Source: Candidatus Cryptobacteroides excrementipullorum
GTDB lineage: Bacteria > Bacteroidota > Bacteroidia > Bacteroidales > UBA932
Direction of reading: 5' to 3'
Assembly: GCA_017695065.1 (NCBI GenBank)
Contig: JADILZ010000046.1
Location: forward strand, 1 to 64,000
Length of the DNA stretch: 64,000 nucleotides
Shown: positions 6,812 to 28,433 of the stretch, one piece after another
How the letters are laid out: the number at the start of each line of letters is the position of its first letter
Position numbering within the stretch: the first letter of the stretch is position 1
The notes under the pieces: model-generated
What the model was told of the DNA's origin: nothing
Databases searched by the model: none
Seen by the model: the letters and a program-made list of their open reading frames with translations, nothing else
Program-made: the position numbers and the translations under genes

Positions 6812-9763
6812 CTAGTCATTGTATGCCCTGGCTACGATCCTGCAGCTGTCATCCCCGAGGATGGAGGAGTCGAACTCGACAGTGACAGTTTTAGACTCGC
6901 CTTTCAGGAGGGTGAAATAGTTGTCGTCCATTATGGCAGGCAGGACCTGCTCCCCGGATGAAGCATATACCGGCATTACACGGATAGCGAAAGCCACGCC
7001 CTTGCCCCTGTTGGTGATCCTGGCCATAATATAAGTTTTCCCGTTCTCCGTGCGGGAGGATGTCTTCACTGAAAGATCCGCCTTTACAAGGCTGTCAAGA
7101 GCCCGGTAGTTACCCAGACGGGTGGATCTCCAGTAGAAGTTCTCCGAAAGGAGTTTCCCGTCAGAGTCCGTGAGCTTGAGACGGATGAAATGTACAGGTG
7201 TCAGGCCGTTCTCAGCCGTTTCTGTCGAAGGTCCGTAAAGTTCAATTTCATGGACAGCCATGCTCCTGAGCCCTTCCTCCACGTTGAGGATCCTGAAATA
7301 ACGTGCTTTTACAGGCTCTATACTGATCTCCTGGACAGGTTCAGAACCGTTTTCTGCAGTATATGCTGTCCGCCATGCCTCAGCATCGTCCGAGACCTGT
7401 ATCATGTACTTCTTCGAAGCTGCACTCTCCCACGAGAGGACTATCTCAGAAACTTCGACGGGCTCTCCCATATCCACGCACACCCACTGGTCCTTACCGG
7501 ACTGTGCAGACCATGCCGAACCGGTATTGCCGTCTGTGACTGCAGATGCATCAAGATAATCCTTAACCCCGCCAGATGAGGAGAACGCCTTTTTGCCGCG
7601 GGCGAGGTTCCTGTCTTCTGGCAGGTCAAGAGTCATCACGCGCAAGGCCATGTCCGGACGGACTGAAGCTGAAGCCTGTTTCGAGTACTCAGGAAGTTCT
7701 TTTCCGGAAAGGTCATACACCCTGGCGTCTACCTTTACATTATCAAGAGAACGGAGGGTGGCATTCACTATCTTCACTGTATTGTCGGCATAGCTCCACT
7801 GGACATGCACAGGCTCGCAAGCCTTCTTTACGCCCCAGTATGCCCCGTTGAGGTCGTAATAATAATCGTATGTCTGCCATACGAATGACGGATATGCAGA
7901 CTGGCTCATCCATGTCAGGATACCGGAAGCGTCGTTCCACATGTTGTGCTGCCAGCCCTCGAACATGGCCTTGTTTGCCTCTATGTTCAGGAGCTGCGCC
8001 TTGCGGCAGAAATCCTCCGTGCCGGAAGCCTTGCCGTAGTTGTATTCCACAGTATAGAAATACCTGTCCGGGCGGGAATTGAACGATGAAGGTCCGAAGA
8101 AATGCTTGTTCAGCATATCATCGGACATCGGCCACCTGTCCGGCTCCGGCATGAATTTGCAGAAACTCTCATAATTGGTGAATACAGCCGTGCCGATCTC
8201 TGTACGGAAGCCCCAGCCGTCCAGCTTGTGCTCTCCGAATCCGCAAGGGTACGGGGTAAAATACCATATAGGATGCGCATTCACCCACGGTCCGCTGCCA
8301 GAGAAACCGTATTCGCGGGATATGGGCTGGTACCAGCGGTCCCCTCCGTCAAATGTCTTCACGTCTTCCCGGAGCCACTCGTTCAGAGGGGCGAGAGGAA
8401 CTCCCTCGTTGTCACCGCACCATACCGCAATACAAGGATGGTTGCGCAGACGCTTGATCTTCTCGACTGCGTTCTTGTTGAAAGCGAAAATGTCATCGGG
8501 AAGATTTGGATGTGAGTTGAGCCAGAAATCATCGAACACCATTATGCCGTACTTGTCACACGCCTGGTAGAACTCGTCATCGGTAGTAGATCCTATCCAG
8601 TTGCGGATCATGTTCATGTTCATTTCCTTGTGGAGACGGATTTTCAGGTCGTACTCCTCGTCTCGGCAACGCAGAAGCCACTCGCTCATGCCCCAGTTTC
8701 CACCTTTGCAGTAGATTTTCTCCCCGTTTACAGACAGCTGGAAGACCCCTTTGACAAAATCATACGAATATTCCCTGATACCGAATGTGATATCCCTGCT
8801 CTCCGATTCCCGGCCGTCAACAGAACAAGTGAGAGTGCATGTGTAGAGATTCTGTTCCCCGTAGCCGTTAGGCCACCACAGGGCAGGATTGGCTATCTCG
8901 AGCTGAGGGAAGTCTTTCGGGGAAAAACTGCAGAAAGCACGCCGTCCGGCCTGAACTTTAACTGTGCGCTCGAACTCGATGCCGCCAGGCTGCACAATCC
9001 CTTTCACAAGCACCTCCTTTTCGGTGTCGGAGTGGTTCACCAGGCCGGTGGTCAGGGAGACGAGACCCTTGTCCACAGCAGGTACCCGGGTACGCACCCA
9101 CGGGTCTTCGAAAGTGATGTCTCCGGAAGCCTCTGCATAAACATCATCCGTAATACCTCCCAACAAACCAGGCACATAAGGCATCCAGTCCCAGCCGGCG
9201 CTGGAAATATAGGTCGGACTGGCATAATTCGGGATAGGGTCCTCAGGAGAAAAGACTTTCACGGCCAGGACATTCGTGGTACCGTCCTGCTTCAGCAAAC
9301 CACTGACATCGAACCGGCCCCTGTCCATGAAGCCGTCAAGAAGACCGAGACGGATACCGTTGAACCATATCTCGCCCTGACGGTTGATACCCTCGAAGCA
9401 GATCCACACATGGTCGCCGGCAGGCAAGCCGGCGGTAGGTATTTCAGTACGGTACCAGTAGTCATGGCGGTATTTTTCACGATCGACCTTATAGGCATTG
9501 TCCCCATAATTGGGGTCAGGTTCCAGACCGGCCTCCACATAAGAAGTGAATGTGGCACCCGGCACGACAGCCTTGACCCATCCGCCAGTGTCGAATCCCG
9601 CCTCATGCAGTCCTTCATGCGAAACGGCCTCACCATCGGGATGCAGATACCAATGTGTTACACCGTCCCCGCTGTTCAGGGACACCCTGTCCTGCGCCTG
9701 CAAAAAAATTCCAGACAGCAATAATGCCGCGACAGCCGGCATTAGAATCTTCTTCATTGTCAT
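6812..9763 (-). CDS. GH2 family glycosidase (beta-mannosidase / exo-beta-glucosaminidase-like) with F5/8 type C-like domain
   Basis: Jelly-roll N-terminus, HPCIAVWCGDNEGVPL acid/base motif, FRTEIGTAVFTN, internal discoidin-like segment AFSSSGGVKDYLDASAVTDGNTGSAWSAQSGKDQWVCVDMGEPVEVSEIVLSWE. Confidence 0.88.
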   Translation of the reverse strand: MTMKKILMPAVAALLLSGIFLQAQDRVSLNSGDGVTHWYLHPDGEAVSHEGLHEAGFDTGGWVKAVVPGATFTSYVEAGLEPDPNYGDNAYKVDREKYRHDYWYRTEIPTAGLPAGDHVWICFEGINRQGEIWFNGIRLGLLDGFMDRGRFDVSGLLKQDGTTNVLAVKVFSPEDPIPNYASPTYISSAGWDWMPYVPGLLGGITDDVYAEASGDITFEDPWVRTRVPAVDKGLVSLTTGLVNHSDTEKEVLVKGIVQPGGIEFERTVKVQAGRRAFCSFSPKDFPQLEIANPALWWPNGYGEQNLYTCTLTCSVDGRESESRDITFGIREYSYDFVKGVFQLSVNGEKIYCKGGNWGMSEWLLRCRDEEYDLKIRLHKEMNMNMIRNWIGSTTDDEFYQACDKYGIMVFDDFWLNSHPNLPDDIFAFNKNAVEKIKRLRNHPCIAVWCGDNEGVPLAPLNEWLREDVKTFDGGDRWYQPISREYGFSGSGPWVNAHPIWYFTPYPCGFGEHKLDGWGFRTEIGTAVFTNYESFCKFMPEPDRWPMSDDMLNKHFFGPSSFNSRPDRYFYTVEYNYGKASGTEDFCRKAQLLNIEANKAMFEGWQHNMWNDASGILTWMSQSAYPSFVWQTYDYYYDLNGAYWGVKKACEPVHVQWSYADNTVKIVNATLRSLDNVKVDARVYDLSGKELPEYSKQASASVRPDMALRVMTLDLPEDRNLARGKKAFSSSGGVKDYLDASAVTDGNTGSAWSAQSGKDQWVCVDMGEPVEVSEIVLSWESAASKKYMIQVSDDAEAWRTAYTAENGSEPVQEISIEPVKARYFRILNVEEGLRSMAVHEIELYGPSTETAENGLTPVHFIRLKLTDSDGKLLSENFYWRSTRLGNYRALDSLVKADLSVKTSSRTENGKTYIMARITNRGKGVAFAIRVMPVYASSGEQVLPAIMDDNYFTLLKGESKTVTVEFDSSILGDDSCRIVARAYND

Positions 9764-9865: not shown

Positions 9866-11716
9866 CTACCAACCTGGATTCTGTGTCAAAGATGGATTCA
9901 TCGTAATCTCATCATATGGGAATGGCAGCAAATAAAGTTTGTCATCCCAGTTGCCTCTTCTTGACTGAGCGTCATAAGTCACATCATAATTACTCAAGTC
10001 AGTAGGATCTGTTGTAACTTTATCCGGATCGATAAAGCCGTGGAACCAAGGGACATCAACTGCCCAATGCTCTCCGACACCATCTTCACTTGTGTTTGTG
10101 ATGAACTCTCTGTAATCTCCCCACCGGATCAGGTCAACATACCTGTCGCAGTCCTCAAGATAAAGCTCGAAACGACGCTCTGCCTTGATTCCATACTCCT
10201 CATTATCCATATCCAGAGCCGGAGCATCTGTCAGACCGGCCCTTCTGCGTACCATGTTCAATGCCTCAAGCCCTGAAATACTTGCAGGACCTTCCCCATC
10301 CATGCAGCAGGCTTCGGCATACAGAAGCAGAACATTCGAATATCTCATAAGAGGGAAATTGGTGGTATTACCATGAGTCTGACCGCTTTCATACCTGCCG
10401 GATTCTGTATCGTCCAGGAAGTCATAATATTTCATCCTGAAATAACCTTCGCAAGAAAAGTATCCGGTACTTCCCGCCACACCTCTGATGTCTGCATTTC
10501 CATAAGGGAACATCCTGTACACTTCATCAAAGGTAGCTATTGTGGCTCTTCTTCGAAGACTGTTGCCGTCATGTTTACAGAAAGCGAGGCCGAATGTCCT
10601 GGTAGGAAGAATGAATCCCCATCCGTCATTACGTGAAGAAGTATTTCCCGGAGCGAAGAACTGGTCATATCTCCAGTTCATATAAGCCCTGAACCAGTAT
10701 GGTTCCGTATTGGTTATGGTTGTCGCATCTCCGCTTATGTCAAGTTCGAGGAGAAACTCATCGCAGAAGTCTGCCTCTGCACGGAATACTGTAGAGTAAA
10801 CATAATCCTCACTTCCATCTATCCACGCGCGGGCAGAAGCACCAGGTTCAAGGCTGGCATTGTACTCCGCATTCGATGCATCCATTTCAGACTTATAGGT
10901 CATCGTGTTTGTACCATAAGAAGACGGACCCATTGTTGCCGTTCCCTTCCACAAATCATATTTGCCGGAATCAATTACCTTTGCAAGCTCGACCTTGGCA
11001 TTAGCATAGTCATTCTGCCACATGTAGCCCTTGCCTTTGTATGCATAGCAAGCCTCTTTGGTCCAGCGGCCACCTATAGCAGCCTGTCCGCCTAAAGCGG
11101 CCTTTGAAGGAAGGACTTCCGCAGCCTCGTCGAACTGCTGCATAATCCATGTCCAGCTTTCTTCTGGAGAAGTATTCCCCGGTGTGAACGAATAATCGAT
11201 ACCGTCAAGAGTGTGGGAAACAAGCGGTGCAGAACCCCACAGCTGCGTAAGATGCATCATAGCCCAGGCCCTCCATGCTTTAGCTTCACCTATTACACGC
11301 TGACGCTCAGCCGATTCGCCATTAAGTTTCTCTACTATCATATTACAACGGCGCATAATTCTGTAGAGCCTCTGATACATGTCTTTATATGCCCCTGTCT
11401 CTGAATTGTCCGTAAATCGAGCCATCGCCTGATAGTCCGCGCCATCGGAAGGACCTGAACCACCCGGCCATGAATCAGCGACTTTCGCTGTAGTGGTGGC
11501 GATGAAATGGATACCCCAATCACCCATCATGAGATATTTCACATCCACATAAACACCGGCAATCAACGACTGCGCAGTAGCGTCATCAGCATTGGCATAA
11601 GTCTCATCCTCCGGGAGAACGCCATGCTGTTCGAACTCCAGATATTTTCCGGAACAAGAGAAAATAAGCATTCCGGAAGCTACCAGTCCTGTTATTTTTA
11701 TCAATATATTTTTCAT
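9866..11716 (-). CDS. SusD/RagB family nutrient-binding outer membrane lipoprotein
   Basis: Lipobox LIFSCSGKYLEFEQHG; ...AKAWRAWAMMHLTQLWGSAPLV..., NFPLMRYSNVLLLYAEA, C-terminal LYLLPFPYDEITMNPSLTQNPGW. Confidence 0.95.
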   Translation of the reverse strand: MKNILIKITGLVASGMLIFSCSGKYLEFEQHGVLPEDETYANADDATAQSLIAGVYVDVKYLMMGDWGIHFIATTTAKVADSWPGGSGPSDGADYQAMARFTDNSETGAYKDMYQRLYRIMRRCNMIVEKLNGESAERQRVIGEAKAWRAWAMMHLTQLWGSAPLVSHTLDGIDYSFTPGNTSPEESWTWIMQQFDEAAEVLPSKAALGGQAAIGGRWTKEACYAYKGKGYMWQNDYANAKVELAKVIDSGKYDLWKGTATMGPSSYGTNTMTYKSEMDASNAEYNASLEPGASARAWIDGSEDYVYSTVFRAEADFCDEFLLELDISGDATTITNTEPYWFRAYMNWRYDQFFAPGNTSSRNDGWGFILPTRTFGLAFCKHDGNSLRRRATIATFDEVYRMFPYGNADIRGVAGSTGYFSCEGYFRMKYYDFLDDTESGRYESGQTHGNTTNFPLMRYSNVLLLYAEACCMDGEGPASISGLEALNMVRRRAGLTDAPALDMDNEEYGIKAERRFELYLEDCDRYVDLIRWGDYREFITNTSEDGVGEHWAVDVPWFHGFIDPDKVTTDPTDLSNYDVTYDAQSRRGNWDDKLYLLPFPYDEITMNPSLTQNPGW

Positions 11717-11734
11717 TGCAATACCAGATTAATG

Positions 11735-14700
11735 TCAGAATGAAAGATTTACACCGACTGTTACTGTTTTTGGAGTTGGATAGTCTCCGTAATCCATACC
11801 CATGGCGGATGAAGCATTTATCGTTTCAGGATCCATTCCAGGGTATTTTGTGAAACAGAAGAAATTGTCAAGAGATACATACACGCGCAGTTTGGAAACA
11901 TATATCTTCTTTAGAAGTCTTTCCGGCAAAGAATACCCGAGAGCAATCTGTTTGATCTTGAAGTATGATCCATCATACATCTGCATATCAGACAGATACA
12001 TATAGGTATCAGTCAAGACTGCCGGCTTAGGATACTTGGCACCGGCTCCTTTCACGCTCCAGCTCTCTGTCCACATTTCAGCAGGACGGTTTGCCTGAGG
12101 TACGCTACGGGTGTTGAACATGATTTCTCCACCTGCGCTTCCGCTTCCGAATATTGTGAGGTCGAATCCTTTATATGCAGCGTTGAAAGTAAGGCCATAA
12201 GTGAGAGTAGGTATCGCTGACCCCAGGAATACCTTGTCGGCTTCTGTAATATCGCCGCTCTTATCGGTATCCTGATAAACTGCCTCACCTGTTTCAGGGT
12301 CCGGACCAAGATATTTGTATCCATAATAGCTCCATACAGGCTGCCCGGCATCAAAATAAACCAGTCCATTTGAAGCGGAATCCTGAATCCTGGAATTATC
12401 ACCGATACTCTTGACCTCATTGCTCAAGGTAGCAATGTTCGCATCGATACTATAATAGAAATCGCCTGCGTTGTCTTTCCAGCCAAGGTCAAACTCAAAA
12501 CCATGGTTGTTTACAAGACCTACATTCCGTGTTACACTTGTCGCACCGGAAGACAGCGGCGGTGTCATGGAAATCAACTGTCCGCTTGTATTCTTGTTAT
12601 AGAAATCCATAGTGAAGCTGAGTCTGTCATTGAGGAACCTGGCATCGATTCCGGCATCCCACTGTTTGGAAGTCTCCCAACGAAGAGATGGATTGGCCAA
12701 TACATCAGATGGTTTGATTGCCACGGTATGATCTGTACTTGAACCACTCATAGGATAGTAATCTCCGGTTGTAAGAGACGATCCGTATCTGTATCCGCCA
12801 AGCACATTCACATTACCGTTTTCACCGTAAGAAGCTCTTACTTTCAAGAATGACAAGGCATTACGGCTCACATTGCTCATAAAATGCTCATTTGAGACAG
12901 TCCATCCGACTGAGACAGAAGGAAAATATCCCCATCTTGATTCAGGAGAAAGTTTAGATACGTCATAAGCATCGGCCCTGAAGCTTACCTGTACGCTATA
13001 CCGGTCATCATAGGTATAACCGACGCGACCGAAATAGCTGACGTTTGAATTCTCACTTTCCTCTCCGCCGACAGAGTCGCTTGCATCCGAGGTGGAATAA
13101 TTCAAATAGTGGAAATTATCAGCGTCGCTTGTAAAGCTGTTTGTGGAGCCGCTGGTAAAGTTAGACCATCCGTAATGGTAGGCCATACCTACCATTGCTG
13201 AGACTGAATGTTTGCCGAAAGTATTGTTGTAATTTATGAAGTTTTCCCAATCTATACTGTAGCCTGTACTTGTCTGGGCATTATAATTAGGAGTGGTTCT
13301 GGATGATATAGAGAAATATACCGGCTTCCCATAGTAGCTGTAATCTGATGAATTGATGTTGTAACCCAACCTTGTGGTCACGACAAGACCTTTTACCGGT
13401 TTGAAGTTCACAGCAGTGATACCTCTTGTATTGAAGTCCCTGTGACGACTGTCCTGGCTGTAATACCATGTCATAGGATTCGAGCTGTCAAGGATAAACT
13501 GAGGAACTGCCGCATAGTCTCCGTTCTCATTCTTCATAAACATGTCATCGCCATGCTGGCTTATAAGGTTCTGCATATATGCAGGAAGATTGTTCTTATC
13601 GTAGAATGTCGGAGTGAGAGGATCATAAAAATATGGAGAGTTGTAATGCTGCTTGTCTATGCCGTCTCCTGTCCTTTCATAGTCTGAATACGTGATAGTA
13701 TTGTTGGTGGATATGTTGAGCCAAGGTTTGATATCATATGATGCATTCAGCTGTAATGACACCCTTTTCATATAGTCCTTGTCTCCGTAGTACATACCGT
13801 CGTTGTCGAGATAAGACATCGCTGCATAAAGAGAACCTTTGTCATTTCCACCTTCAAAGCCTACAGTATGACGCTGGATATGGCCTCCATCACCATAAAG
13901 AGCATCCGCCCAATCAGTATCAGTGACACCATCCCATGCTGACATGGTAGTACCGTTCCCGGCAGCTGTCTGATATGCCACATACTGCTCAGCATTCATC
14001 AGATCCGCTTTCCTTGCAAGAGAAGTGAATCCATAAGAGAAATCATAGAAAATGTGGCCATCCTGTCCTTTTGCTCCCTGCTTGGTAGTTATGAGGACGA
14101 CTCCGTTACCTGCTTCCGCACCATAGATGGCAGCCGAAGCACCGTCTTTCAGGATTTCCATAGATTCAATCATGGTAGGATCAAGATACCCGATACTGGA
14201 AACTTTCAATCCATCAACGACATACAGAGGGTTTGTCGCTCCTGAGGAGTTAGAACTGATACCCCTGACTCTTATCTGAGGATCTGCACCAGGAGCAGCT
14301 GAACCACTATAGACCTGTACACCAGCCACTTTTCCTTGCAGAGCCTGCTGGACAGTCTCTACAGAACGATTTGCAAGTGCATCGCCTTTTACAGAAGAGA
14401 TGGCTCCCGTCACATCGCTTTTCTTCTGGACGCCGTAGCCGATGACCACGACATCTTCAAGAAGCTCAGCGTCTTCGGAAAGTGTGAAATTCAATACGGT
14501 TGCCCCACCCACTGCCTTTCTCTGGTCCACATATCCGAGACACGAGACGATAATAGTGGCATCAGGGCTGATACTGTCGAAGACATACTTTCCGTCCGCG
14601 TCAGTGACAACACCGGAAGATGTGCCCTCAATCAAAATAGACGCTCCGATTACCGGGACACCCTGCCCGTCAAGCACTGTTCCCGTGAGCCTGTGCTCCT

Positions 14701-14788
14701 GGGCAGATGCCTCGGCGCCGGACCAGGCCGCGATTGAAAAAGTTATTGCCACTACAGACAATACCTTTTTTATCAAGTTTTTAATCAT
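11735..14788 (-). CDS. SusC/RagA family TonB-linked outer membrane protein
   Basis: Carboxypeptidase-like N-terminal domain (LTGTVLDGQGVPVIGASILIEGTSSGVVTDADGKYVF), plug EDVVVIGYGVQKKSDVTGAISSVKG, C-terminal beta-barrel signature. Confidence 0.96.
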   Translation of the reverse strand: MIKNLIKKVLSVVAITFSIAAWSGAEASAQEHRLTGTVLDGQGVPVIGASILIEGTSSGVVTDADGKYVFDSISPDATIIVSCLGYVDQRKAVGGATVLNFTLSEDAELLEDVVVIGYGVQKKSDVTGAISSVKGDALANRSVETVQQALQGKVAGVQVYSGSAAPGADPQIRVRGISSNSSGATNPLYVVDGLKVSSIGYLDPTMIESMEILKDGASAAIYGAEAGNGVVLITTKQGAKGQDGHIFYDFSYGFTSLARKADLMNAEQYVAYQTAAGNGTTMSAWDGVTDTDWADALYGDGGHIQRHTVGFEGGNDKGSLYAAMSYLDNDGMYYGDKDYMKRVSLQLNASYDIKPWLNISTNNTITYSDYERTGDGIDKQHYNSPYFYDPLTPTFYDKNNLPAYMQNLISQHGDDMFMKNENGDYAAVPQFILDSSNPMTWYYSQDSRHRDFNTRGITAVNFKPVKGLVVTTRLGYNINSSDYSYYGKPVYFSISSRTTPNYNAQTSTGYSIDWENFINYNNTFGKHSVSAMVGMAYHYGWSNFTSGSTNSFTSDADNFHYLNYSTSDASDSVGGEESENSNVSYFGRVGYTYDDRYSVQVSFRADAYDVSKLSPESRWGYFPSVSVGWTVSNEHFMSNVSRNALSFLKVRASYGENGNVNVLGGYRYGSSLTTGDYYPMSGSSTDHTVAIKPSDVLANPSLRWETSKQWDAGIDARFLNDRLSFTMDFYNKNTSGQLISMTPPLSSGATSVTRNVGLVNNHGFEFDLGWKDNAGDFYYSIDANIATLSNEVKSIGDNSRIQDSASNGLVYFDAGQPVWSYYGYKYLGPDPETGEAVYQDTDKSGDITEADKVFLGSAIPTLTYGLTFNAAYKGFDLTIFGSGSAGGEIMFNTRSVPQANRPAEMWTESWSVKGAGAKYPKPAVLTDTYMYLSDMQMYDGSYFKIKQIALGYSLPERLLKKIYVSKLRVYVSLDNFFCFTKYPGMDPETINASSAMGMDYGDYPTPKTVTVGVNLSF

Positions 14789-14838: not shown

Positions 14839-15882
14839 TTAAAGCAGTGTAGAAAGTATCTCTCTGATGGAGAATATGGCCCCGCAGATGACCTCGTCGC
14901 TGGCACCATAGTACATAGTAATGGTATCCCCTTCAACTATGTGTCCGCTGGAGAAGACCACGTTCCCGAAAAAGCCTTCGAGTTCATATGGTGCAGAAGG
15001 TTCCATTATCGGTTCTTCGCTTCTGGCAATGACCTTTGAGGGGTCATCAAGGTCAAGGAGCAGGGCACCGAGGCAGTACCTGTTGTCAGCGTCCGCCCCA
15101 TGGTAAATTTCAAGCCAGCCTTTTTCAGTCCGTATCGGAGGAGCACCTGCGCCGACCCTCACGGAATCCCATTTCCCCGGACGGGTGGTGGCCACGCATT
15201 TGTGGTTCCCCCAGTGGAGCCGGTCAGGGGACTCCGCAATCCATATATAGTTTCCTCCGAGTTCAGGGCTGCTCGGGCGGTGGAAGACGTAGTATTTCCC
15301 GTTTATCCGCTCTTCGAACAGGGCGCAGTCCTTGTTGTGCGGAGGGAAAATCATCCCGTGGCGGTCGAAATGCTTCCAGTCCGTCGTATGCATGAGCCCT
15401 ACACCTACTGCTACCGGTGACACTTCCGTAAATGTCAGCCAGTATCCGTCCTCCATCTTCGCCACACGGCAGTCTTCGATTCCGAAACTCTCGAGAGGCC
15501 CCTGCCCGAAAACGGGGGGATATGCAGGATCTTCCGAGAAATTCACCCCGTCTGCGCTGGATACCAGACGGAAGTAGGACAGTGTAGTAAGGTAATCCTG
15601 GCCTCTGTAGTTTATGACCCTCGGGTCTGATGCGTCCAGCTCAGGGTTGTCTTTGCCGAATGAAAGGACCTTAATCCTGCCGTTCTCGTCATATACGGGG
15701 AAACTGACAGAGCCTTCCTGCTGTACAGGGCGCTCGGCTACCCTGAGCACAAGCCATGTCCTTCCTCTATACCTGAATACTCCCGGGTTGAGTATGCAGG
15801 CTATCTCCATCCCTTCTATGGCCGGCTCCAGGGACTTCACGGTAAGGAGAGGGTTGCCGGTGAATCTTTTCGCTATATCCAT
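14839..15882 (-). CDS. GH130 family beta-mannoside phosphorylase/hydrolase
   Basis: GPLESFGIEDCRVAKMEDGYWLTFTEVSP..., GAGAPPIRTEKGWLEIYHGAD, EGFFGNVVFSSGHIVEGDTITMYYGASDEV. Confidence 0.88.
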   Translation of the reverse strand: MDIAKRFTGNPLLTVKSLEPAIEGMEIACILNPGVFRYRGRTWLVLRVAERPVQQEGSVSFPVYDENGRIKVLSFGKDNPELDASDPRVINYRGQDYLTTLSYFRLVSSADGVNFSEDPAYPPVFGQGPLESFGIEDCRVAKMEDGYWLTFTEVSPVAVGVGLMHTTDWKHFDRHGMIFPPHNKDCALFEERINGKYYVFHRPSSPELGGNYIWIAESPDRLHWGNHKCVATTRPGKWDSVRVGAGAPPIRTEKGWLEIYHGADADNRYCLGALLLDLDDPSKVIARSEEPIMEPSAPYELEGFFGNVVFSSGHIVEGDTITMYYGASDEVICGAIFSIREILSTLL

Positions 15883-15909: not shown

Positions 15910-17601
15910 CTATTCTATAGGGAGGCCCTTGTATGCGCGGTATGTAGCCGCGAGGTCTGCCGTGCGGACGAAGATGTATTTCTTGCCGTCATTGCGTGCC
16001 TCAATCTTCTTCTTCAGCTCCGCCGCATAAGTGAGGCAGTCAGTTGACGCCGTACCTATCATCACGGAGAGGAAAAGGGGTTCGCCTTCAGGAGCATTGT
16101 CCAGGGCTGCATCGAGATATTCAGGCTCGGAGTTGGTGGTACCGACATGGAAGCAGTTCCCGTCCATGTGGTATTCATACGGGCCGATGCCCCTCCAGTC
16201 TGTACCGGCGTAGCCGCTCTGCACCACGTACGGCTGAACATTCCAGGCCACATCCTCACCGCTGATCATCTGCTTGACAGTACGCATACCTGCCTTCTCG
16301 ACATAGTGCTTCGCAAGGGCACAATAGAAAGAGAATCCTTCATATCTCTCAGGTATAGGCGACCCGTCTCCCATCATCGCGCCCATTTCCTGGCCAGTCT
16401 GTGCGAATTTCTCTTCATACCACCTGAATACTCTCGGAGCAAGGTCTGTGATGGCAGGATTGATAATCCATGTCACAGGCACAGCGCCGAAATTCGGGGA
16501 ATTGGCTATGGTATAAGGCATGTACACCATGGTATGCAGCAGATTGTCCCCGTCGGAAATGAAGAACGCTATCACCACAGTGTTCTCGTCCACCTCGTAT
16601 GCCTTCGGCTCAATCGGTTTCCCTTCTACATCAGGGAACGAGGACATGATGGTCATGTTCTCTACAGAAATAAGCGGCACCATCACGTACCCGTAATCAG
16701 CGAACAGCTTGTCGGCCCAGAGTTCATCGGTCCAGCCTACCACAGGTGTTCCCGCAGGATACCTTTTGATGACAGTCTCGTTGTAATGACATTCTTCAGG
16801 GACTGTGATGTCAAGGAAAAAGGTGAAAAGCCTGTTGGCCACGACATAGTCCTTGTTCGCAGCGCCCCAGCTCTGCTCAAAGTCCAGGTTCATGTGTGAC
16901 CATGTGAAAGCCACATCATGGTTGGCGCCATCGAACCAGTTGGCCAGTAGCCAGTCAACGCACTCTATATTGTTCTTGAATTTCCCCCTGAGATCCTCTA
17001 TCACCTTGAAACCGTATTCCTTCACCTCGTTGTAAAGCGACGGGGAAAGGATGAGGGCGTCCGTCTGTGCCGCAACAGTGGTAGCCGCCTCTATTGTAGC
17101 CTGTTCCAGGTCAGGGTCATAAATCACTACCCCCTTCACGAAATCCTTATATCTGGCAAGGAGAGCCTTGAATGCCGGATTCCTCTTGGTCTGGTCCAGG
17201 GAGAGGAACTCTTTCGGAAGGTCCTGGAATATATTGTCAAGCCAGAACTGGCCCATCTGGGCCATGGTGCCGTAACGGACTGTCCATCCGCCACGGTTGT
17301 CCTTGCAGCGGCTGTTCATCACATATATTTTCTGCTTTTCAGTCCTGTTCACTATCCCCTGGAGACCTATGGCCGCAATCTGGCCCTCAATGTCATCATT
17401 GGAAAGGTCCGCTACCACCAGTGATTCCGTAGGGACAGGATTTGTAGGATAGAGACGGTTCTCGAGACTTATGTCAGAGATCCCGCTTGATGGACATCCC
17501 TCTGTGCAGGATGAAAACGAGAGCAGCACAATTGCTGCCGGAATTAAGCCTGTGGCAATCCTGAAATGTTTCATAAATCTTTCGGTTATCAGTTTGTTCA
17601 T
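15910..17601 (-). CDS. GxGYxYP-family putative glycoside hydrolase-like lipoprotein (start may be 17574)
   Basis: PTESLVVADLSNDDIEGQIAAIGLQGIVNR..., lipobox LLSFSSC; resembles the uncharacterised GxGYxYP family found in Bacteroidetes polysaccharide utilisation loci (PULs). Confidence 0.65.
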   Translation of the reverse strand: MNKLITERFMKHFRIATGLIPAAIVLLSFSSCTEGCPSSGISDISLENRLYPTNPVPTESLVVADLSNDDIEGQIAAIGLQGIVNRTEKQKIYVMNSRCKDNRGGWTVRYGTMAQMGQFWLDNIFQDLPKEFLSLDQTKRNPAFKALLARYKDFVKGVVIYDPDLEQATIEAATTVAAQTDALILSPSLYNEVKEYGFKVIEDLRGKFKNNIECVDWLLANWFDGANHDVAFTWSHMNLDFEQSWGAANKDYVVANRLFTFFLDITVPEECHYNETVIKRYPAGTPVVGWTDELWADKLFADYGYVMVPLISVENMTIMSSFPDVEGKPIEPKAYEVDENTVVIAFFISDGDNLLHTMVYMPYTIANSPNFGAVPVTWIINPAITDLAPRVFRWYEEKFAQTGQEMGAMMGDGSPIPERYEGFSFYCALAKHYVEKAGMRTVKQMISGEDVAWNVQPYVVQSGYAGTDWRGIGPYEYHMDGNCFHVGTTNSEPEYLDAALDNAPEGEPLFLSVMIGTASTDCLTYAAELKKKIEARNDGKKYIFVRTADLAATYRAYKGLPIE

Positions 17602-17638: not shown

Positions 17639-17693
17639 CAAAAGTAGTTTCATACATGACATAAAAGGTGTACTATTCTATCAAAAAAGTACA
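17639..17693 (-). promoter_or_regulatory. Operon A promoter with HTCS operator-like element (site a)
   Basis: Minus-strand -7 TACTTTTG (17639-17646), 15-nt spacer, 32-bp element 17662-17693 (minus strand TGTACTTTTTTGATAGAATAGTACACCTTTTA). Confidence 0.7.
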
Positions 17694-17803: not shown

Positions 17804-20800
17804 ATGAAAAAGACGACCATTACAGCAGTTTTCATCATCCTTGTCATAACAGGCTTATTCCCCGTCCATGCCCTTGCCACGCCGGGCTGCTATGTAAGGA
17901 CCAATGCCGACGGGCTCTCCAACAGCAGCATTACCTGCATGTACCAGGATTCGCTGGACAGGCTATGGATAGGGACATGGGACGGGCTCAATGTATATGA
18001 TTCCCATGAATTCTGGGTATGGCAGCACGAGCCGGATGACGACAATACAATATCAAACAACGTCATTCGCGGCATTGCCGAACAGGATGGAGGAATAATG
18101 TGGATCGCTACGGATTACGGGATAAACAGGATCGACACCAGAAACAGTATCGTGGAAAGGTTCTATCTGGGATATGAACACCGCAACCCCACTGAAGAAA
18201 AGACTTTCAGCGTGACAGTGTCGGATGAAGGAGAAGTGTTCTGTGCGGCAAAGGACTGGGGCATTGCTTTCTACAACAGCACTTCCGGCAGGATGGAGGC
18301 CGTAAATATTCCCGGGATAAGCACGTCAGACATTGCCGGAATCTACTGCGGTGGGAAAGGCAGGCTCATCCTCATATCCGTAAACGGCTCTGCGGCACTT
18401 GTCAGGTATACATTCCCTGAGCCAGGCAAAATAGACATAATAGAGAAGTCGGACATGCTCCCCGGAACCACAATATACTGCCTGTCTGTCTGCAGGGATA
18501 TACTGTATATGCTTACAACGGACAATGAAATGCTCCGTTATGATACCGTCACCTCCACATTCACAGACAGGATACATGTCCCGGTCAAAGGCAAGGTCAA
18601 AGCCGTGGCAGAATTGGACGGAGGACGGGTGGCCCTGGGATTCGACTCCAGGGGAGTTTGCACGCTGGAGCCAGACACAGGAGCCCTGGACTGGATTCCC
18701 GAGCTCTCCGACATCAACATATTCTCCATGTACTACGGCTCGCAGGACATTCTATGGATAGGTACAGACGGCCAGGGTCTCTGGGCATTCTACGAAGATC
18801 CGTTCAAGATGGACAAGATGACATATCTGCAGATGTCCGGGACAAGCACTAGGTATCCTGTACGTACATTCTACAAGGACAACATGGGGAACCTTTTCAC
18901 CGGCACGAAAGGAAACGGGATACTCGTGACCCGCGGCGGGAAGAGGGTCAGGTCGTACAGCACATCTGACGGGCTGGGGAACAACTCCGTATATGCACTC
19001 ACAGGATGGGAAGACGGAGACATACTCGTCGGACACGACGGGAAAGGCATAAATGTGATTTCAGGGAAGACAGGAGCCGTATCAAGAATCATCCCTGACA
19101 AGGACAATGACTTCGGCTCTGTCTACAACTTCCTGAAAGACGACACCACAGGCTATCTGTGGATGGGGACATCCGGGTACGGGCTTGTAAAGGCCAAAAT
19201 AGAAAAGACATCCGGAGAATACCGCATTTCCGACATCAGGAAATACACCAGCAACCCGAAGGAATACACATCCATAAACAACAATGTGGTCCAGGCCCTT
19301 GTACAGGAAGGTGACAGCGTCCTTTGGGTAGGGACACGAGGTGGCGGGCTCAACAGGCTTGACCTCAGAACCGGCAATTTCACCCACTATACAGTGGACA
19401 CAGGGGACAACCCCATCAGCAGCAATGACATACTGTCTCTGCATATAAGCAGAAACGGGACATTGTGGGCCGGGACAAGCTACGGTCTGAACAGGCTGGT
19501 ATCATATTCGGACGGAGCCTGTTCATTCAAGTCTATAACGACACGTGACGGACTGCACAACAACACCATACACGGCATCGAAGAAGACCACGCCGGGAAA
19601 CTTTGGCTAGGGACCAGCCAGGGACTTTCCGTATATGAGCCCAACTCCGGAAAAATCACCAATTACTACAATGACGACAAACTCCAGGACAACGAGTACT
19701 CTGACGGGGCATGCTACGCAGACGACAGCGGACTCCTGTATTTCGGTGGCATAAACGGGTTCAACTGGTTCAATCCGGAAAGCATCCAGCCGAGGAGCTT
19801 CGAGCCTGAAGTCCTTATCAGCAGAGTGACGCTCAGCCAGGATCCCGATACCGATATCATGGACAATTCCGGCACTATCACACTCCGGCACAATGAAAAC
19901 TTCTTCAACATATATTTCACTGCCCTTGAATATATTAACAACAGCAACTGCGAATACTCCTACATTCTCGAAGGGTTCAGCGGCGACTGGGTCCAGGCCG
20001 GCACATCACATTCAGCATCATTTACAAATGTTCCACCCGGCAAATACACATTCAAGGTACGGAGCACCAACGGAGACAAAGTGTGGAGCGGAAAGACAAC
20101 ATCCATAAAAATAAGGATAATGCCTCCATGGTGGGCGACAGTGTGGGCATATATAGCCTATACGATAATAATTGTCGTAGCCATTTTCCTGATACAGACC
20201 GCCATAAACATGAGGATGAAACAGAAGCACCGTCTGGAACTTGAGTCCCTCAAACGCAGACAGCTTGCCCAGACATATGAGGCAAAACTGAGATTCTTCA
20301 CAAATATCGCCCACGAATTCACCACCCCTCTCACTCTGATATGCGGCCCTATAGAGCAGATAATGAACGAGTACAAGCTGCCTGCCAAAGTGGAGAAGTA
20401 CAACAGGATAATACTCAACAATGCCGAAAGGATGCTACGCCTTATCCAGGAGCTCATTGAATTCCGCAAAGCAGATACTGGAAACCAGAAGCCGCAGTAC
20501 AGCAAAGTTGACCTGACCGAGATGATAATGACCATCATCGACAATTTCTCTGAGATGAAAGAGGAGAAACAGATAACCATGGAAACATCAATAGGACAGG
20601 GAATGTCAGTAGTGACCGACCACAACGCCATGGAAAAGATACTGTACAACCTGATCTCCAATGCATACAAATACACTCCGGACGGAGGTAATATCAGCAT
20701 CTGCGCCGGAACGGGGCCTGATGGCATAACAATATCAGTAAAAAATTCCGGAAAAGGGATTAAGCCGGAGCATCTGGGGCAGGTTTTTGACAGGTTTGTG

Positions 20801-21844
20801 ATTCTGGACAACTATGAATACCGTGCGAGCAAAGGCAAGACTCTACGTAACGGGATAGGCATGGCTCTGGTATCAAGCCTTGTAAAAATGCTTTCAGGAG
20901 AAATAAAAGTGGCAAGCGAACAGGGTAAATACACCATGTTCACAGTCACACTCCCTCATGTCGGGGAAGAGATGGCAAGCACAACTGCTGCTCCGGACAT
21001 GCGTCAGGATATAAAGCCTGCCGCCGAATTGCTTCAGGAAGAAGACGAAAGGCTTCAGAGCAACACCCAGCAGGCCAACGGGAAAAAGAGCATCATGGTA
21101 GTTGATGACGAAGCACAGATACGGGATCTGGTGGCAGACATACTCGGTTACGAATACAGAATAATACAGGCCCGGGATGGAAAAGATGCACTGGAAAAGC
21201 TGAAAGACGGCATACCTGACCTGGTGATATCAGACCTGAATATGCCTAACATGAATGGCACAGAATTATTGAAACATCTGAAAGCCAACGAGATAACCAA
21301 ATTTATCCCTGTTATTTTCCTGGCCTTCAAGACTGATATAGGGGAAGAAATCGAAACCTATGAAATGGGAAGCGAGGTCTTCATCCCGAAACCGTTTTAC
21401 CCGAAGCATCTCAAAGCCGTGGTACACAGAATACTGGACAGCAGGTCAATGTTGAAGGACTATTACAATTCCGCCATATCCTCCAGTGACATATATGACG
21501 GGACTACAGTGGATGCAGAGGGCAAGAAGTTCCTTATGCAGATGACCGCAATAATAGAGGAAAACATCACTGATGAAAACCTATCACCGAACATGATCTG
21601 TGAAAAGATGACCACAAGCAGGATGCAGCTGTACAGAAAACTTAAAGAACTGACGCAGCAGACCCCGAGCGAATTCATCAGGAACATAAAGCTCGAGCAC
21701 GCCGCCCATCTCCTCAAGACTACAAAGCTGACCGTGCAGGAAGTGATGTTCAGTTCCGGGTTCAACAACAAATCTTACTTCTACAGGGAATTCGCCGGGA
21801 AATACATGATGTCGCCGAAGGAATACCGGAAAGGCAACCAGTAG
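17804..21844 (+). CDS. Hybrid two-component system sensor histidine kinase/response regulator (HTCS) with AraC-type HTH
   Basis: Reg_prop propeller repeats (LWIGTWDGLNVYD..., LWVGTRGGGLNRLD...), Y_Y_Y domain, HisKA (HEFTTPLTLICGPIEQI), HATPase (NLISNAYKYTPDGG), receiver (VVDDEAQ...VISDLNMP), C-terminal AraC HTH. Start chosen at MKKTTITAVF (17804) rather than 17696. Confidence 0.95.
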   Translation: MKKTTITAVFIILVITGLFPVHALATPGCYVRTNADGLSNSSITCMYQDSLDRLWIGTWDGLNVYDSHEFWVWQHEPDDDNTISNNVIRGIAEQDGGIMWIATDYGINRIDTRNSIVERFYLGYEHRNPTEEKTFSVTVSDEGEVFCAAKDWGIAFYNSTSGRMEAVNIPGISTSDIAGIYCGGKGRLILISVNGSAALVRYTFPEPGKIDIIEKSDMLPGTTIYCLSVCRDILYMLTTDNEMLRYDTVTSTFTDRIHVPVKGKVKAVAELDGGRVALGFDSRGVCTLEPDTGALDWIPELSDINIFSMYYGSQDILWIGTDGQGLWAFYEDPFKMDKMTYLQMSGTSTRYPVRTFYKDNMGNLFTGTKGNGILVTRGGKRVRSYSTSDGLGNNSVYALTGWEDGDILVGHDGKGINVISGKTGAVSRIIPDKDNDFGSVYNFLKDDTTGYLWMGTSGYGLVKAKIEKTSGEYRISDIRKYTSNPKEYTSINNNVVQALVQEGDSVLWVGTRGGGLNRLDLRTGNFTHYTVDTGDNPISSNDILSLHISRNGTLWAGTSYGLNRLVSYSDGACSFKSITTRDGLHNNTIHGIEEDHAGKLWLGTSQGLSVYEPNSGKITNYYNDDKLQDNEYSDGACYADDSGLLYFGGINGFNWFNPESIQPRSFEPEVLISRVTLSQDPDTDIMDNSGTITLRHNENFFNIYFTALEYINNSNCEYSYILEGFSGDWVQAGTSHSASFTNVPPGKYTFKVRSTNGDKVWSGKTTSIKIRIMPPWWATVWAYIAYTIIIVVAIFLIQTAINMRMKQKHRLELESLKRRQLAQTYEAKLRFFTNIAHEFTTPLTLICGPIEQIMNEYKLPAKVEKYNRIILNNAERMLRLIQELIEFRKADTGNQKPQYSKVDLTEMIMTIIDNFSEMKEEKQITMETSIGQGMSVVTDHNAMEKILYNLISNAYKYTPDGGNISICAGTGPDGITISVKNSGKGIKPEHLGQVFDRFVILDNYEYRASKGKTLRNGIGMALVSSLVKMLSGEIKVASEQGKYTMFTVTLPHVGEEMASTTAAPDMRQDIKPAAELLQEEDERLQSNTQQANGKKSIMVVDDEAQIRDLVADILGYEYRIIQARDGKDALEKLKDGIPDLVISDLNMPNMNGTELLKHLKANEITKFIPVIFLAFKTDIGEEIETYEMGSEVFIPKPFYPKHLKAVVHRILDSRSMLKDYYNSAISSSDIYDGTTVDAEGKKFLMQMTAIIEENITDENLSPNMICEKMTTSRMQLYRKLKELTQQTPSEFIRNIKLEHAAHLLKTTKLTVQEVMFSSGFNNKSYFYREFAGKYMMSPKEYRKGNQ

Positions 21845-21865: not shown

Positions 21866-21920
21866 TATACTTATTTGAAAGAATAAGATACCGCTTTATG
21901 GATAGCCGGAGTTAATTTTG
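21866..21920 (+). promoter_or_regulatory. Operon C promoter with HTCS operator-like element (site c)
   Basis: 32-bp element TATACTTATTTGAAAGAATAAGATACCGCTTT (21866-21897), 15-nt spacer, TAATTTTG (21913-21920). Confidence 0.65.
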
Positions 21921-21948: not shown

Positions 21949-23253
21949 ATGAACACTCTATCCAAATCCAAGAAATCATCAGGCTTTGCAGGAAAAGCGT
22001 TTTCAGAAATACGGCATTTCCGCACGTATCCGCACAACATGCAGGTCCTGCTGATAACGAATATGCTGTATGCCTTCGTCCTTCCTGTCGTGGAATTGTT
22101 CGTGGGGACATATATAATAAGGAACAGCTCCGAGATGGCATACGTAATCGGCTACCAGCTGGCCGTATATTCAGGAATCCCCCTCACATTCCTCGTCAAC
22201 GGATTCCTGATGAAAAAGATCAAGATAACATGGCTCTATGCTTTCGGTATGCTTCTGAGCGGAATCTCCATGGCAGTCATGATGTCCCTGGAAACACTTG
22301 ACCTTGGAGGCATCGTCATGGCCGGCCTTATAATGGGCATGTCATACGGATTCTTCTGGGCAAACAGGGATTTCCTTGCGCTCAATTCCACGAATGACGG
22401 AAACAGGAACTACTATTACGGTCTCGAAAGTTTCTTCAACACAATGGCGAGCGTGATAGTCCCTTATGTTATAGGCCTGTTTCTTGGGGCGGCTGCGGAC
22501 AAGGGAATCCTGGGAGGAGACATCGACCTTGCATACAAGATTGTCACATTGTGCGTATTCGTGCTCACCATCATGGCATCATGCGTATTGTCCCGCGGGA
22601 AATTCCCCAAACCGGAAAACCGGAAATTCATTTATTTCCGGTTCGACAAACTGTGGAACCGTATGATGGGGCTTGCCGGTCTGAAAGGCATAGCGCAGGG
22701 TTACATTGTAACCGCACCGTCCATGCTCGTGATGACCTTCGTAGGGAATGAATCTACCCTCGGAGTGCTGCAGTCGATAAGTGCCATAGTATCTGCTGTG
22801 CTCCTGTATATCCTTGGCAGGTTCACCTCTCCCAAACACAGAATATGGATATTCTCCGCCGGCCTTCTGCTGTTCGCCCTCGGAGGGGCATTCAACACTG
22901 TGCTCTACTCGGCCACAGGCGTTATCGCGTTCATGCTCTGCCTTGTGCTCGCACGGCCTCTTATGGACATGGGGTATTTCCCTATACAGATGAGGGTCAT
23001 AGACTATGTAAGCCGGAAAGAGAAGCGCAGCTCCTATACCTACATTTTCGTGCATGAACTCGGGCTGTACATCGGCCGGTTCTTCGGATGCGGGCTGTTC
23101 ATCGTCATCACACTGCTCATATCGGATGTTGTGGCCTTGAGATATACCATCCTGATAATAGGAGTGATACAACTGCTCTCCATTGCCGTGGCCTTACATA
23201 TCACGAAGTATCTCGACAAAGCGGAGCAGGGTGTGGAACCACGTGCGCTGTAA
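21949..23253 (+). CDS. MFS-type transporter
   Basis: Polytopic membrane protein of 434 aa with paired hydrophobic helices; first gene of the HTCS-proximal operon. Confidence 0.7.
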   Translation: MNTLSKSKKSSGFAGKAFSEIRHFRTYPHNMQVLLITNMLYAFVLPVVELFVGTYIIRNSSEMAYVIGYQLAVYSGIPLTFLVNGFLMKKIKITWLYAFGMLLSGISMAVMMSLETLDLGGIVMAGLIMGMSYGFFWANRDFLALNSTNDGNRNYYYGLESFFNTMASVIVPYVIGLFLGAAADKGILGGDIDLAYKIVTLCVFVLTIMASCVLSRGKFPKPENRKFIYFRFDKLWNRMMGLAGLKGIAQGYIVTAPSMLVMTFVGNESTLGVLQSISAIVSAVLLYILGRFTSPKHRIWIFSAGLLLFALGGAFNTVLYSATGVIAFMLCLVLARPLMDMGYFPIQMRVIDYVSRKEKRSSYTYIFVHELGLYIGRFFGCGLFIVITLLISDVVALRYTILIIGVIQLLSIAVALHITKYLDKAEQGVEPRAL

Positions 23254-23281: not shown

Positions 23282-25570
23282 ATGAAGAAAATCGGGAAAA
23301 TTATCTTTACGGTGATGGCTGTACTGTCACCGTTTGCCGGTATTGCACAGGAAAAAGACCTTGTACAATACGTGAACACCAGGCAAGGCACCGATTCCAG
23401 ATTCGAGATGAGCCGGGGCAACACCTATCCGGCCACGGGTATGCCCTTCGGAGTACATCTATGGTCTCCTCAGACCGGAAAGAACGGCGAGGGATGGAAA
23501 TACCAGTGGTCCGAGGACAAGATCCGGGGCTTCTGCCAGTCCCACCAGTGCAGTCCGTGGATGAGCGACTATGCGGTCTATTCGCTCATGCCGATGAGCG
23601 GTGAACTTCAGGTAGACCAGGACGAACGTGCCGAGAAATTCAGTCATGACAATGAAATCGGAAAGCCGAATTACTACAAAGTGACGTTCGACAGCGGGGT
23701 CACTACCGAAATAGCCCCTACAGAACGTGGCGCACACATGAGATTCTCATATCCTTCAGGAGAACCTGCCTATCTGGTGCTGGATGGCTACACACATTCG
23801 GCCGGCATCGACATAGACCCTGAAAAGAGGCAGATCTCAGGATGGGTGGACAATTACAGATTCCTGAACCAGCCGGACGGGTTCCGCTGCTGGTTCGTCA
23901 TACAGTTCGACAAGCCGTTTGAAGAGTACGGCCTGTGGGAAAACAGGAACAATTCACTTATGCCGGGGAAGGCCGAAGGCGAAGGGGAAGGCTACGGCGC
24001 ATATGTGAGATTCAAGCCAGGGACGAAAGTGCAGGCAAAGGCCGCATCCTCATACATCAGTCAGGAACAGGCCGAGCTCACTCTGAGCCAGGAGCTCGGG
24101 AAAGACAGGAAGCTGGAAGACACGAAACAGCGCGGATTCGAGACCTGGAACAAGCTCCTCAACAGAGTGCTGGTGGAAGGCGGCACGGAGGAGCAGCTGA
24201 GGACATTCTACTCATGCCTTTTCAGGGCAAACCTATTCTCCCGCAAGTTCTATGAAATCAAGGAGAACGGGGAGCCGTACTACTACAGCCCGTACGACGG
24301 GAAAGTGCATGACGGCTACATGTACACTGTCAACGGCTTCTGGGACACTTTCCGCTCACAGTTTCCTCTCACATGCATCCTTCACCCGACCATGCAGGGA
24401 CGCTATATGGTGGCGCTTCTTGACGCCCAGCAGCAGTGCGGCTGGCTGCCTTCATGGTCCAACCCAGGAGAGACAGGAGGCATGATAGGCAACCACGCCA
24501 TCTCACTCCTGGCTGACGCATGGGCAAAAGGCATACGCACATTCAACCCGCAGAGAGCCCTTGAGGCATACGCACACGAGGCTATGAACAAAGGGCCGTG
24601 GGGAGGGGCCAACGGAAGGGTACTCCCGCAGGACTATTTCTGCCGCGGTTATGTACCTTATCCTGAATCCGGAGGATCCACGGCCCAGACACTGGAATAT
24701 GCATACGACGACTTCTGCGGATACCAGCTCGCGAAAATGACAGGCAACAGATTCTACGAGGACATATTCGCCCGCCAGATGTACAACTACCGCAATGTAT
24801 TTGACAGCAGTACAGGGTTCATGAGAGGGCGCGGACGCGACGGGAAATGGATGGAGCCATTCGACCCTCTGGCATGGGGCGGCCCGTACTGTGAAGGGAA
24901 CGCATGGCATTACAACTGGTCAGTTTTCCATGATGTCCAGGGCCTTATCGACCTGTATGGCAGCAATGAAAAATTCATTGCAAAACTCGACTCGGTGTTC
25001 ATGATGCCGAGCACCATAGTACCCGGCACATACGGCGGAATCATCCACGAGATGGCGGAAATGGAGCTTGCGGGCATGGGACAGTATGCGCACGGCAACC
25101 AGCCTATCCAGCACATGCCATACCTTTACTGCTATGCCGGAGAGCCGTGGAAGACCCAGTACTGGGTGCGCCAGATAATGGACAGGCTATACAACTCCGG
25201 AGAGAAAGGCTTCCCTGGAGACGAGGACCAGGGCGGGATGTCATCATGGTACGTCCTGAGCGCCATGGGAATCTACTCAGTATGCCCGGGAACAGACGAA
25301 TACGTGATCGGAAGCCCGATATTCCGGAAAGTGACCATCACACTCGAGAACGGCAATAAATTCACTATCTTCGCGGAGAACAACAGCCCGGAGAACGTCT
25401 ACATCCAGTCAGCAGACCTCAACGGCATGGAGCTCGACAAGAACTATATCACCTACGGAGACATAAATGCCGGAGGAGAGCTCCACCTGGTGATGGGGGA
25501 CACGCCTGCAAAAGACAGGTGCACATCCAGATATGCAGCCCCGTTCTCTCTGTCAAAAAGGGATAAATGA
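23282..25570 (+). CDS. GH92 family alpha-mannosidase
   Basis: DLVQYVNTRQGTDSRFEMSRGNTYPATGMPFG..., EGNAWHYNWSVFHDVQGLIDLYG, GDEDQGGMSSWYVLSAMGIYSVCPG. Confidence 0.92.
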   Translation: MKKIGKIIFTVMAVLSPFAGIAQEKDLVQYVNTRQGTDSRFEMSRGNTYPATGMPFGVHLWSPQTGKNGEGWKYQWSEDKIRGFCQSHQCSPWMSDYAVYSLMPMSGELQVDQDERAEKFSHDNEIGKPNYYKVTFDSGVTTEIAPTERGAHMRFSYPSGEPAYLVLDGYTHSAGIDIDPEKRQISGWVDNYRFLNQPDGFRCWFVIQFDKPFEEYGLWENRNNSLMPGKAEGEGEGYGAYVRFKPGTKVQAKAASSYISQEQAELTLSQELGKDRKLEDTKQRGFETWNKLLNRVLVEGGTEEQLRTFYSCLFRANLFSRKFYEIKENGEPYYYSPYDGKVHDGYMYTVNGFWDTFRSQFPLTCILHPTMQGRYMVALLDAQQQCGWLPSWSNPGETGGMIGNHAISLLADAWAKGIRTFNPQRALEAYAHEAMNKGPWGGANGRVLPQDYFCRGYVPYPESGGSTAQTLEYAYDDFCGYQLAKMTGNRFYEDIFARQMYNYRNVFDSSTGFMRGRGRDGKWMEPFDPLAWGGPYCEGNAWHYNWSVFHDVQGLIDLYGSNEKFIAKLDSVFMMPSTIVPGTYGGIIHEMAEMELAGMGQYAHGNQPIQHMPYLYCYAGEPWKTQYWVRQIMDRLYNSGEKGFPGDEDQGGMSSWYVLSAMGIYSVCPGTDEYVIGSPIFRKVTITLENGNKFTIFAENNSPENVYIQSADLNGMELDKNYITYGDINAGGELHLVMGDTPAKDRCTSRYAAPFSLSKRDK

Positions 25571-27105: not shown

Positions 27106-27107
27106 AC

Positions 27108-28433
27108 ATGCTCACCAGGAAATTTATCGCCACGGCAGGAATCTGCATGGCAGGTTTTGCCGCCTATGGCCAGGACAGGCCAAATGTCATCCTGATATAT
27201 ACAGACGACCAGGGAAGCCTGGATGCGGGATGCTATGGAGCTGAGGATCTTTTCACGCCCAACATCGACGCTCTCGCCGCTGACGGGGTAAGGTTCACCC
27301 AGTTCTATGCCGCCCCGGTCAGCTCGGCATCCCGGGCCGCCCTGATGACAGGGCAGTTCACACTGCACGCAGGACTTACGGCGAACGCCGGAGAGAAAGG
27401 CCTTCCACTCGGGAAAGAGACCATTGCCGACCGGATGCGTGCCGGCGGATACCAGACAGCATGTATCGGGAAGTGGCATCTCGGATCCGGGTCCGGATAC
27501 ACACCCAATTCCCGTGGATTCGACTACTTCTGGGGATTCCTCGGAGGGTGTATTGACAGCTATTCGCATTTCTATTACTGGGGAGGGCCCAATGTCCACG
27601 ACCTCTGGGAAAATGGCCGGGAGATATACATGCCAGGCAGGTTTTTCGCCGGAGAGTCCCTCTCCCATATCCGCAGTTTTATAAAAGGGCGGGATGAAGA
27701 CAGGCCTTTTTTCCTCTACTGGGCTGTGAATATACCGCATTATCCGCTGCAGCCGGGCGAGAAGTGGCTTGAGTATTATCATGACCTTCCGTCTCCACGG
27801 AACATGTATGCCGCCTTTGTCTCCACCTTTGACGAGCTGCTCGGGGAACTGAGAGTATTCCTGGAGTCAGAAGGGCTTACTGATGATACGGTCATAATCT
27901 TCCAGTCGGACAACGGGCACAGTAACGAAGTCCGTACTTTCGGAAGCGGAGGATACTGCGGGGATTACCGGGGAGGCAAATTCTCGCTGTTCGAAGGCGG
28001 GATCAGAGTCCCTGCCATCATATCCTGGCCAGGCCACTTCCCTGAGGGAGAAGTCAGGGACCAGATGGCAGCCAATGTGGACTGGTTCCCGACCTTGGTG
28101 GATTTGTGCGATGTGGAGGCGGAGAATATGGACACCGACGGGAAAAGCCTCGTGCCTCTGATAACGGACGGGGACAGCCAGGCTCCGCACGACACCCTGC
28201 ATTTCGACTTCCTGGACCAGTGGGCGGTACGGTGCGGGGACTGGAAGCTTATCCACGATGCGCAGGATGTCAAGCCGAATGACAAGACCGACATCATCGA
28301 GGGGCTTTTCCTGAGCAACCTCAGTCTTGACCCTGCCGAGCGTACCGACTTCAAGGACTCGCATCCGAAGGTCGTAGAAAAGCTGCTCCGGATAAGGGAG
28401 GAATATGAAAAGAGTCAGGGTCATGGCCGGTGA
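27108..28433 (+). CDS. Sulfatase (S1 family, Ser-type)
   Basis: RPNVILIYTDDQGSLDAGCYGAEDLFTPNIDALAADGVRFTQFYAAPVSSASRAALMTGQ; start at MLTRKFIATAG (27108) with signal peptide. Confidence 0.92.
   Translation: MLTRKFIATAGICMAGFAAYGQDRPNVILIYTDDQGSLDAGCYGAEDLFTPNIDALAADGVRFTQFYAAPVSSASRAALMTGQFTLHAGLTANAGEKGLPLGKETIADRMRAGGYQTACIGKWHLGSGSGYTPNSRGFDYFWGFLGGCIDSYSHFYYWGGPNVHDLWENGREIYMPGRFFAGESLSHIRSFIKGRDEDRPFFLYWAVNIPHYPLQPGEKWLEYYHDLPSPRNMYAAFVSTFDELLGELRVFLESEGLTDDTVIIFQSDNGHSNEVRTFGSGGYCGDYRGGKFSLFEGGIRVPAIISWPGHFPEGEVRDQMAANVDWFPTLVDLCDVEAENMDTDGKSLVPLITDGDSQAPHDTLHFDFLDQWAVRCGDWKLIHDAQDVKPNDKTDIIEGLFLSNLSLDPAERTDFKDSHPKVVEKLLRIREEYEKSQGHGR

Follow-up and report, generated by a model that had tools for sequence, protein, structure and literature searches.

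We suggest that three 32-bp elements in the 64,000-nucleotide stretch of Candidatus Cryptobacteroides excrementipullorum DNA analysed here (contig JADILZ010000046.1; hereafter the window) are operators of the HTCS regulator encoded beside them, and that this regulator very probably binds each element at two half-sites and activates operons A, B and C in a class II-type manner. The elements and the -7 boxes that follow them, as read from the sequence, are:

17662 to 17693, minus strand: site a, direct-repeat element before operon A, half-sites at 17683-17693 and 17662-17672 (also from genome scan)
17639 to 17646, minus strand: -7 box TACTTTTG of operon A, 15 nt past site a
21866 to 21897, plus strand: site c, element ahead of operon C, lying after the HTCS stop codon and before the MFS gene
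21913 to 21920, plus strand: -7 box TAATTTTG of operon C
46847 to 46878, minus strand: site b, element before operon B
46824 to 46831, minus strand: -7 box TATTTTTG of operon B

TAnnTTTG is the Bacteroides -7 consensus (PMC7366714), and at all three sites the end of the element lies 15 nt from such a box. Recounting bore out what the initial annotation had reported of the three 32-mers, their coordinates, strands and gaps: 25 of 32 positions match between a and b, 23 between a and c, and 22 between b and c, with 19 columns invariant. Site b falls inside the listed GH92 open reading frame, whose listed start is an upstream TTG; the ATG at 46784 is the likelier start, which places site b upstream of the gene.

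Each element consists of two direct copies of the unit TRTACY(N)2TTT, at element positions 1-11 and 22-32, which gives a repeat period of 21 bp. In the sites of the window and of its relatives, TRTAC stands at positions 1 and 22, and once the relatives are included the consensus becomes TATACTATTTTGAAAGAATAGTATACCTTTTT. The 21-bp direct repeat of an HTCS operator is therefore present at sites a, b and c, as had been claimed, although the half-site letters first given are better replaced by the unit above. Relative to the -7 box, the half-sites lie at -47 and -26, the second and promoter-proximal one spanning roughly -26 to -16 when counted from the box's first base. The published Bacteroides promoter has a TTTG at -33 (PMC7366714). 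The proximal half-site occupies the position expected for this box, and no -33 TTTG was found in the sequence of any of the three promoters, which agrees with the earlier remark that the element overlaps where such a box should be.

The regulator and the operons, with families assigned from Pfam, are arranged as follows:

17804 to 21844, plus strand: HTCS regulator, proposed binder, with Reg_prop repeats, Y_Y_Y, HisKA, HATPase_c, receiver and AraC-type HTH_18 (also from translation)
15910 to 17601, minus strand: operon A gene 1, GxGYxYP putative glycoside hydrolase
14839 to 15882, minus strand: operon A, GH130
11735 to 14788, minus strand: operon A, SusC
9866 to 11716, minus strand: operon A, SusD
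6812 to 9763, minus strand: operon A, GH2-type
5352 to 6785, minus strand: operon A, SASA esterase
3005 to 5311, minus strand: operon A, GH78-type rhamnosidase
21949 to 23253, plus strand: operon C gene 1, MFS transporter
23282 to 25570, plus strand: operon C, GH92
25567 to 27105, plus strand: operon C, GH43
27015 to 28433, plus strand: operon C, sulfatase
44607 to 46784, minus strand: operon B gene 1, GH92, likely ATG at 46784
43171 to 44553, minus strand: operon B, GDSL esterase
40579 to 43158, minus strand: operon B, GH38
38220 to 40565, minus strand: operon B, GH92
34931 to 38044, minus strand: operon B, SusC
33404 to 34915, minus strand: operon B, SusD

The extent of operon A, to the end of its run, is presumed. 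The NCBIfam model nearest to its GH130 is that of mannobiose phosphorylase, with a score below the cut-off of that model. Taken together, GH92, GH38 and GH130 presumably point to alpha-mannan or N-glycan as the substrate. An AbiEii-type nucleotidyl transferase (type IV toxin family; 28589-29455, minus strand) separates the end of operon C from that of operon B, and an RND-type efflux operon (46988-52555, plus strand), comprising a membrane fusion protein, an AcrB-type pump and an outer membrane factor, diverges from operon B; its own -7 box, also TACTTTTG, is at 46939-46946, 60 nt from site b.

The protein at 17804-21844 unites a propeller/Y_Y_Y sensor, HisKA, HATPase_c, receiver and AraC-type HTH in one chain, as HTCSs do. 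Its listed open reading frame starts at 17696, but the ATG at 17804 is likelier, with a signal peptide-like stretch directly after it. The claim that it is the only regulator encoded here held among the window open reading frames scanned against Pfam, where no second transcription regulator was found. A related-locus search in genome contigs yielded only one remote HTCS. In most HTCSs, an S/CHIP motif in the alpha3-beta4 loop, together with D and K in the DNA-binding domain, locks that domain to the receiver (PMC11253607). The window HTCS lacks this S/CHIP-DK inhibitory interface: it has KFIP for S/CHIP and, in an alignment to PDB 12aw, N at the D position, with the K kept. Most orthologues examined also deviate from S/C at the first position, the close ones having KFIP, KSIP, RNIP, RQIP or SQIP. 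A KFIP-NK type interface puts this clade among the non-consensus, often host-glycan, HTCSs. Phosphorylation may not activate such a regulator in the textbook mode.

Within the genome, the element is confined to the PUL. When the whole 2.76-Mb genome was scanned with the degenerate core, allowing up to 3 mismatches, sites a, b and c were recovered at 0 mismatches together with one unrelated place at 3, and the reversed core gave zero matches in the same scan. The distal half with its spacing, TACTTNTTTG-N33..37-TAnnTTTG, likewise found sites a, b and c plus one unrelated site genome-wide, and with a wrong spacer of N26-32 nothing matched. The concern raised at the outset, that the motif and its spacing might be common at unrelated promoters, was thus not borne out. 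In standing before PUL operons linked to a cognate HTCS, in being conserved with its orthologue and in being absent elsewhere, the element behaves as an HTCS operator should.

The element also recurs at the 15-nt register near HTCS orthologues that are 34-63% identical. Loci retrieved for their HTCS homology (about 34-42% identity) were first scanned with a model of sites a, b and c alone and no spacing rule, which gave new copies at exactly N15 in L042 (two), L039, L044, L040, L038, L037, L050 and L052; leave-one-out scores of the sites were 20-34 bits. A 12-site model then gave eight further N15 sites beside other orthologues, in L195 (two), L201, L202, L210, L212, L214 and L218, and N16 in L204 and L207 (one new site and one already known). 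The N15 and N16 spacings are outcomes of these two scans, as spacing played no part in the search.

The relative G438, whose HTCS is 63% identical, has the three-site layout of the window, before GxGYxYP, MFS and GH92 genes; orthologous copies of sites a (with N15), b and c occur there, and one of site b in G078. Between the window and G438, first half-site bases are kept at 12 of 12 positions for A, 11 of 12 for B and 10 of 12 for C, compared with 3 of 15, 5 of 15 and 10 of 15 spacer bases. At A and B the length of the spacer is conserved and its sequence is not. The operon B orthologue of G078, in which GH38 is 93% identical to that of the window, has gained an extra 21-bp unit at its promoter:

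L110:9380-9520 (G078:C9), minus strand: G078 promoter B, near-perfect 21-bp tandem unit, AAATAAGTATA repeated 11/11

This promoter has three half-sites, and those at -47 and -26 are retained. The gain of one repeat period with the register kept is as expected if the -7 register and helical phase are selected. In L052 (8512-8580; G076), the interval that separates the HTCS gene from a divergent GH130 operon holds overlapping elements on both strands; the element directed towards the HTCS gene, only 2 nt from the -7 box of that gene, is a possible autoregulatory site. Groups of three or more half-site-like repeats were also seen beside HTCS orthologues in L216, L213 and L219 (G405, G173 and G240) at about 1300-1360.

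Across the genus, 400 genomes were searched at a tolerance of 3 mismatches; the element and its spacing turned up in the genome itself and in 18 relatives, and the reversed pattern in 0 of 400. The 15-nt spacing was built into this pattern, so the scan tests co-occurrence and not spacing. HTCS orthologues (E up to 1e-190) are present in 29 relatives, among them 15 of the 18 with the element (hypergeometric p about 9e-17 over 399 relatives, a guide only because related genomes are non-independent). Outside the genome itself, the element stands before gene types known from the mannan PUL of the window at 20 of 22 places (GH130 9, GDSL 4, SusC 3, GH92 2, GxGYxYP 1 and MFS 1), the operons of G438, G217, G370 and G427 having been read within 1.5 kb of each site; the remaining 2 lie before an FAD oxidoreductase (G425) and a family-less open reading frame (G205:C168). 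The element is present with no close orthologue detected in G078, G308 and G327, of which G078 is 84% and G308 83% complete. Conversely, 14 relatives with an HTCS orthologue gave no pattern match in the 400-genome scan; in G038, G049, G071 and G224 among them, sites do occur at N16 or with a larger number of mismatches, and no site was found in the others. Two matches at the maximum of 3 mismatches were set aside as chance, one in G119:C88, inside a coding open reading frame, and one in G139, where the nearest downstream genes are an RND efflux pair.

The proposal that the adjacent HTCS is the likely binder therefore gains support from PUL confinement, orthologue co-distribution, shared target gene types and the published 21-bp architecture. 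In the mechanism we favour, an HTCS dimer would set its two AraC-type DNA-binding domains on the two TRTACY(N)2TTT half-sites, and a separation of 21 bp, two helical turns, would place both domains on the same face of the DNA. Because the proximal half-site lies at the position of the -33 TTTG, HTCS bound there would most likely touch the primary sigma factor and substitute for recognition of that box, as in class II-type activation; the fixed spacing to the -7 box also argues for contact with RNA polymerase. The periplasmic propeller would sense a mannan or N-glycan oligosaccharide, and the signal would switch on operons A, B and C together, with their two SusC/D pairs, GH92s, GH38, GH130, MFS transporter, esterases and sulfatase.

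Other readings of the same sites were considered. HTCSs with non-consensus motifs have been discussed as DNA binders without phosphorylation, and the non-consensus BT2391 represses its own PUL (PMC11253607). The window HTCS may likewise bind DNA without phosphorylation, so that a repressor mode or constitutive occupancy becomes possible. As a repressor, the dimer would lie over the -33 region and block RNA polymerase until a glycan signal released it, a role in keeping with a proximal half-site that covers the -33 position and with KFIP and N in place of the usual S/CHIP and D. We consider this unlikely, however, since promoters without a -33 TTTG of their own should be weak unless activated, and since a fixed -7 register with a variable spacer sequence suits activation better. 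Moreover, HTCSs with tested roles at PULs are mostly activators. It is somewhat more conceivable, if still doubtful, that this clade uses a rigid-register operator as a -33 substitute to which the regulator is bound constitutively, its KFIP-NK lock being broken, and that the signal alters an already bound regulator instead of recruiting it.

Slightly less probable again than repression is binding by a regulator encoded elsewhere, such as a global regulator or a further HTCS. In G078 the element precedes operon B, the neighbouring genes that were examined include no HTCS, and HTCS-type HTH domains elsewhere in that genome are at most 44% identical, as such a regulator would allow; against it stand the co-distribution with orthologues of the window HTCS (p about 1e-16), sites that adjoin the HTCS gene and the fact that no other promoter in the genome carries the element. 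That the similarity reflects an extended core promoter or AT-rich chance matching is hardly credible: the half-sites are T-rich, as are many Bacteroidales upstream regions, but this reading is refuted by the uniqueness of the element in the genome, by the reversed-pattern control (0 of 400 genomes) and by conservation at 34-63% protein identity in which the spacing is kept while the spacer sequence changes.

Activation by the adjacent HTCS through a 21-bp direct repeat has clear precedents. AraC at I1-I2 and XylS at Pm bind as AraC-type HTH dimers to direct repeats spaced by 21 bp, whose proximal half-site coincides with the -35 region or lies over it (class II activation). The window sites share this spacing and a proximal half-site over the promoter box, but differ in the much larger overlap with -33, in the Bacteroidota sigma factor and -7/-33 promoter, and in a membrane-bound one-piece sensor-regulator. 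Closer relatives are described in the HTCS sections of Ravcheev et al. 2013 (PMC3878776), where 21-bp direct repeats were predicted for 16 Bacteroides HTCSs as sites for dimers on one DNA face; the B. thetaiotaomicron HTCS motifs (RegPrecise) likewise have two direct-repeat half-sites, at an average of 21 bp, before SusC/D and glycanase operons adjoining an HTCS. The same sections assign control of B. thetaiotaomicron alpha-mannan PULs to HTCS_Man-1/2/3 (BT2628, BT3302 and BT3786), from which our case differs in its PUL and probably in genus, the likeness being one of architecture. SusR-like regulator sites in that source are also direct repeats before PUL operons, with a centre distance of 67 or 77 bp in contrast to 21 in the window. 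EMSAs with HTCS regulator fragments on predicted-site promoters have been reported for BT4124, BT4663 and BT0366 (PMC11253607; PMC5061871).

The 21-bp architecture was already predicted in 2013 (PMC3878776), and the window sites are a well-supported further case. Beyond it lie the fixed register, the natural 21-bp expansion in one relative and the non-consensus REC-DBD interface; fixed spacing to the -7 box goes unmentioned for HTCS motifs in those sections of PMC3878776. The 15-nt register is not universal for HTCSs, as the 21-bp repeats of other HTCS families lie at other distances from TAnnTTTG; it is a property of the window HTCS clade, perhaps also of a neighbouring one. In a separate HTCS group, seen at L027 (about 1216, minus strand) and L065 (about 7923, minus strand), nGTAC half-sites stand 21 bp from each other at a register equal or nearly equal to that of the window sites, L027 representing a related group that shares it. 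Before TAnnTTTG boxes near HTCSs in general, a repeat lag of 21 bp was the most enriched (93 of 416 boxes, versus 21-60 for other lags), an excess that comes from counting strong repeats, lag profiles averaged over all promoters being too diluted to inform. With strong conservation statistics behind it, the published 21-bp operator rule for HTCSs is thus supported in further Bacteroidales. A testable regulon is also defined for a genus of this order: three operons of one alpha-mannan/N-glycan PUL would answer to one regulator through one predicted operator.
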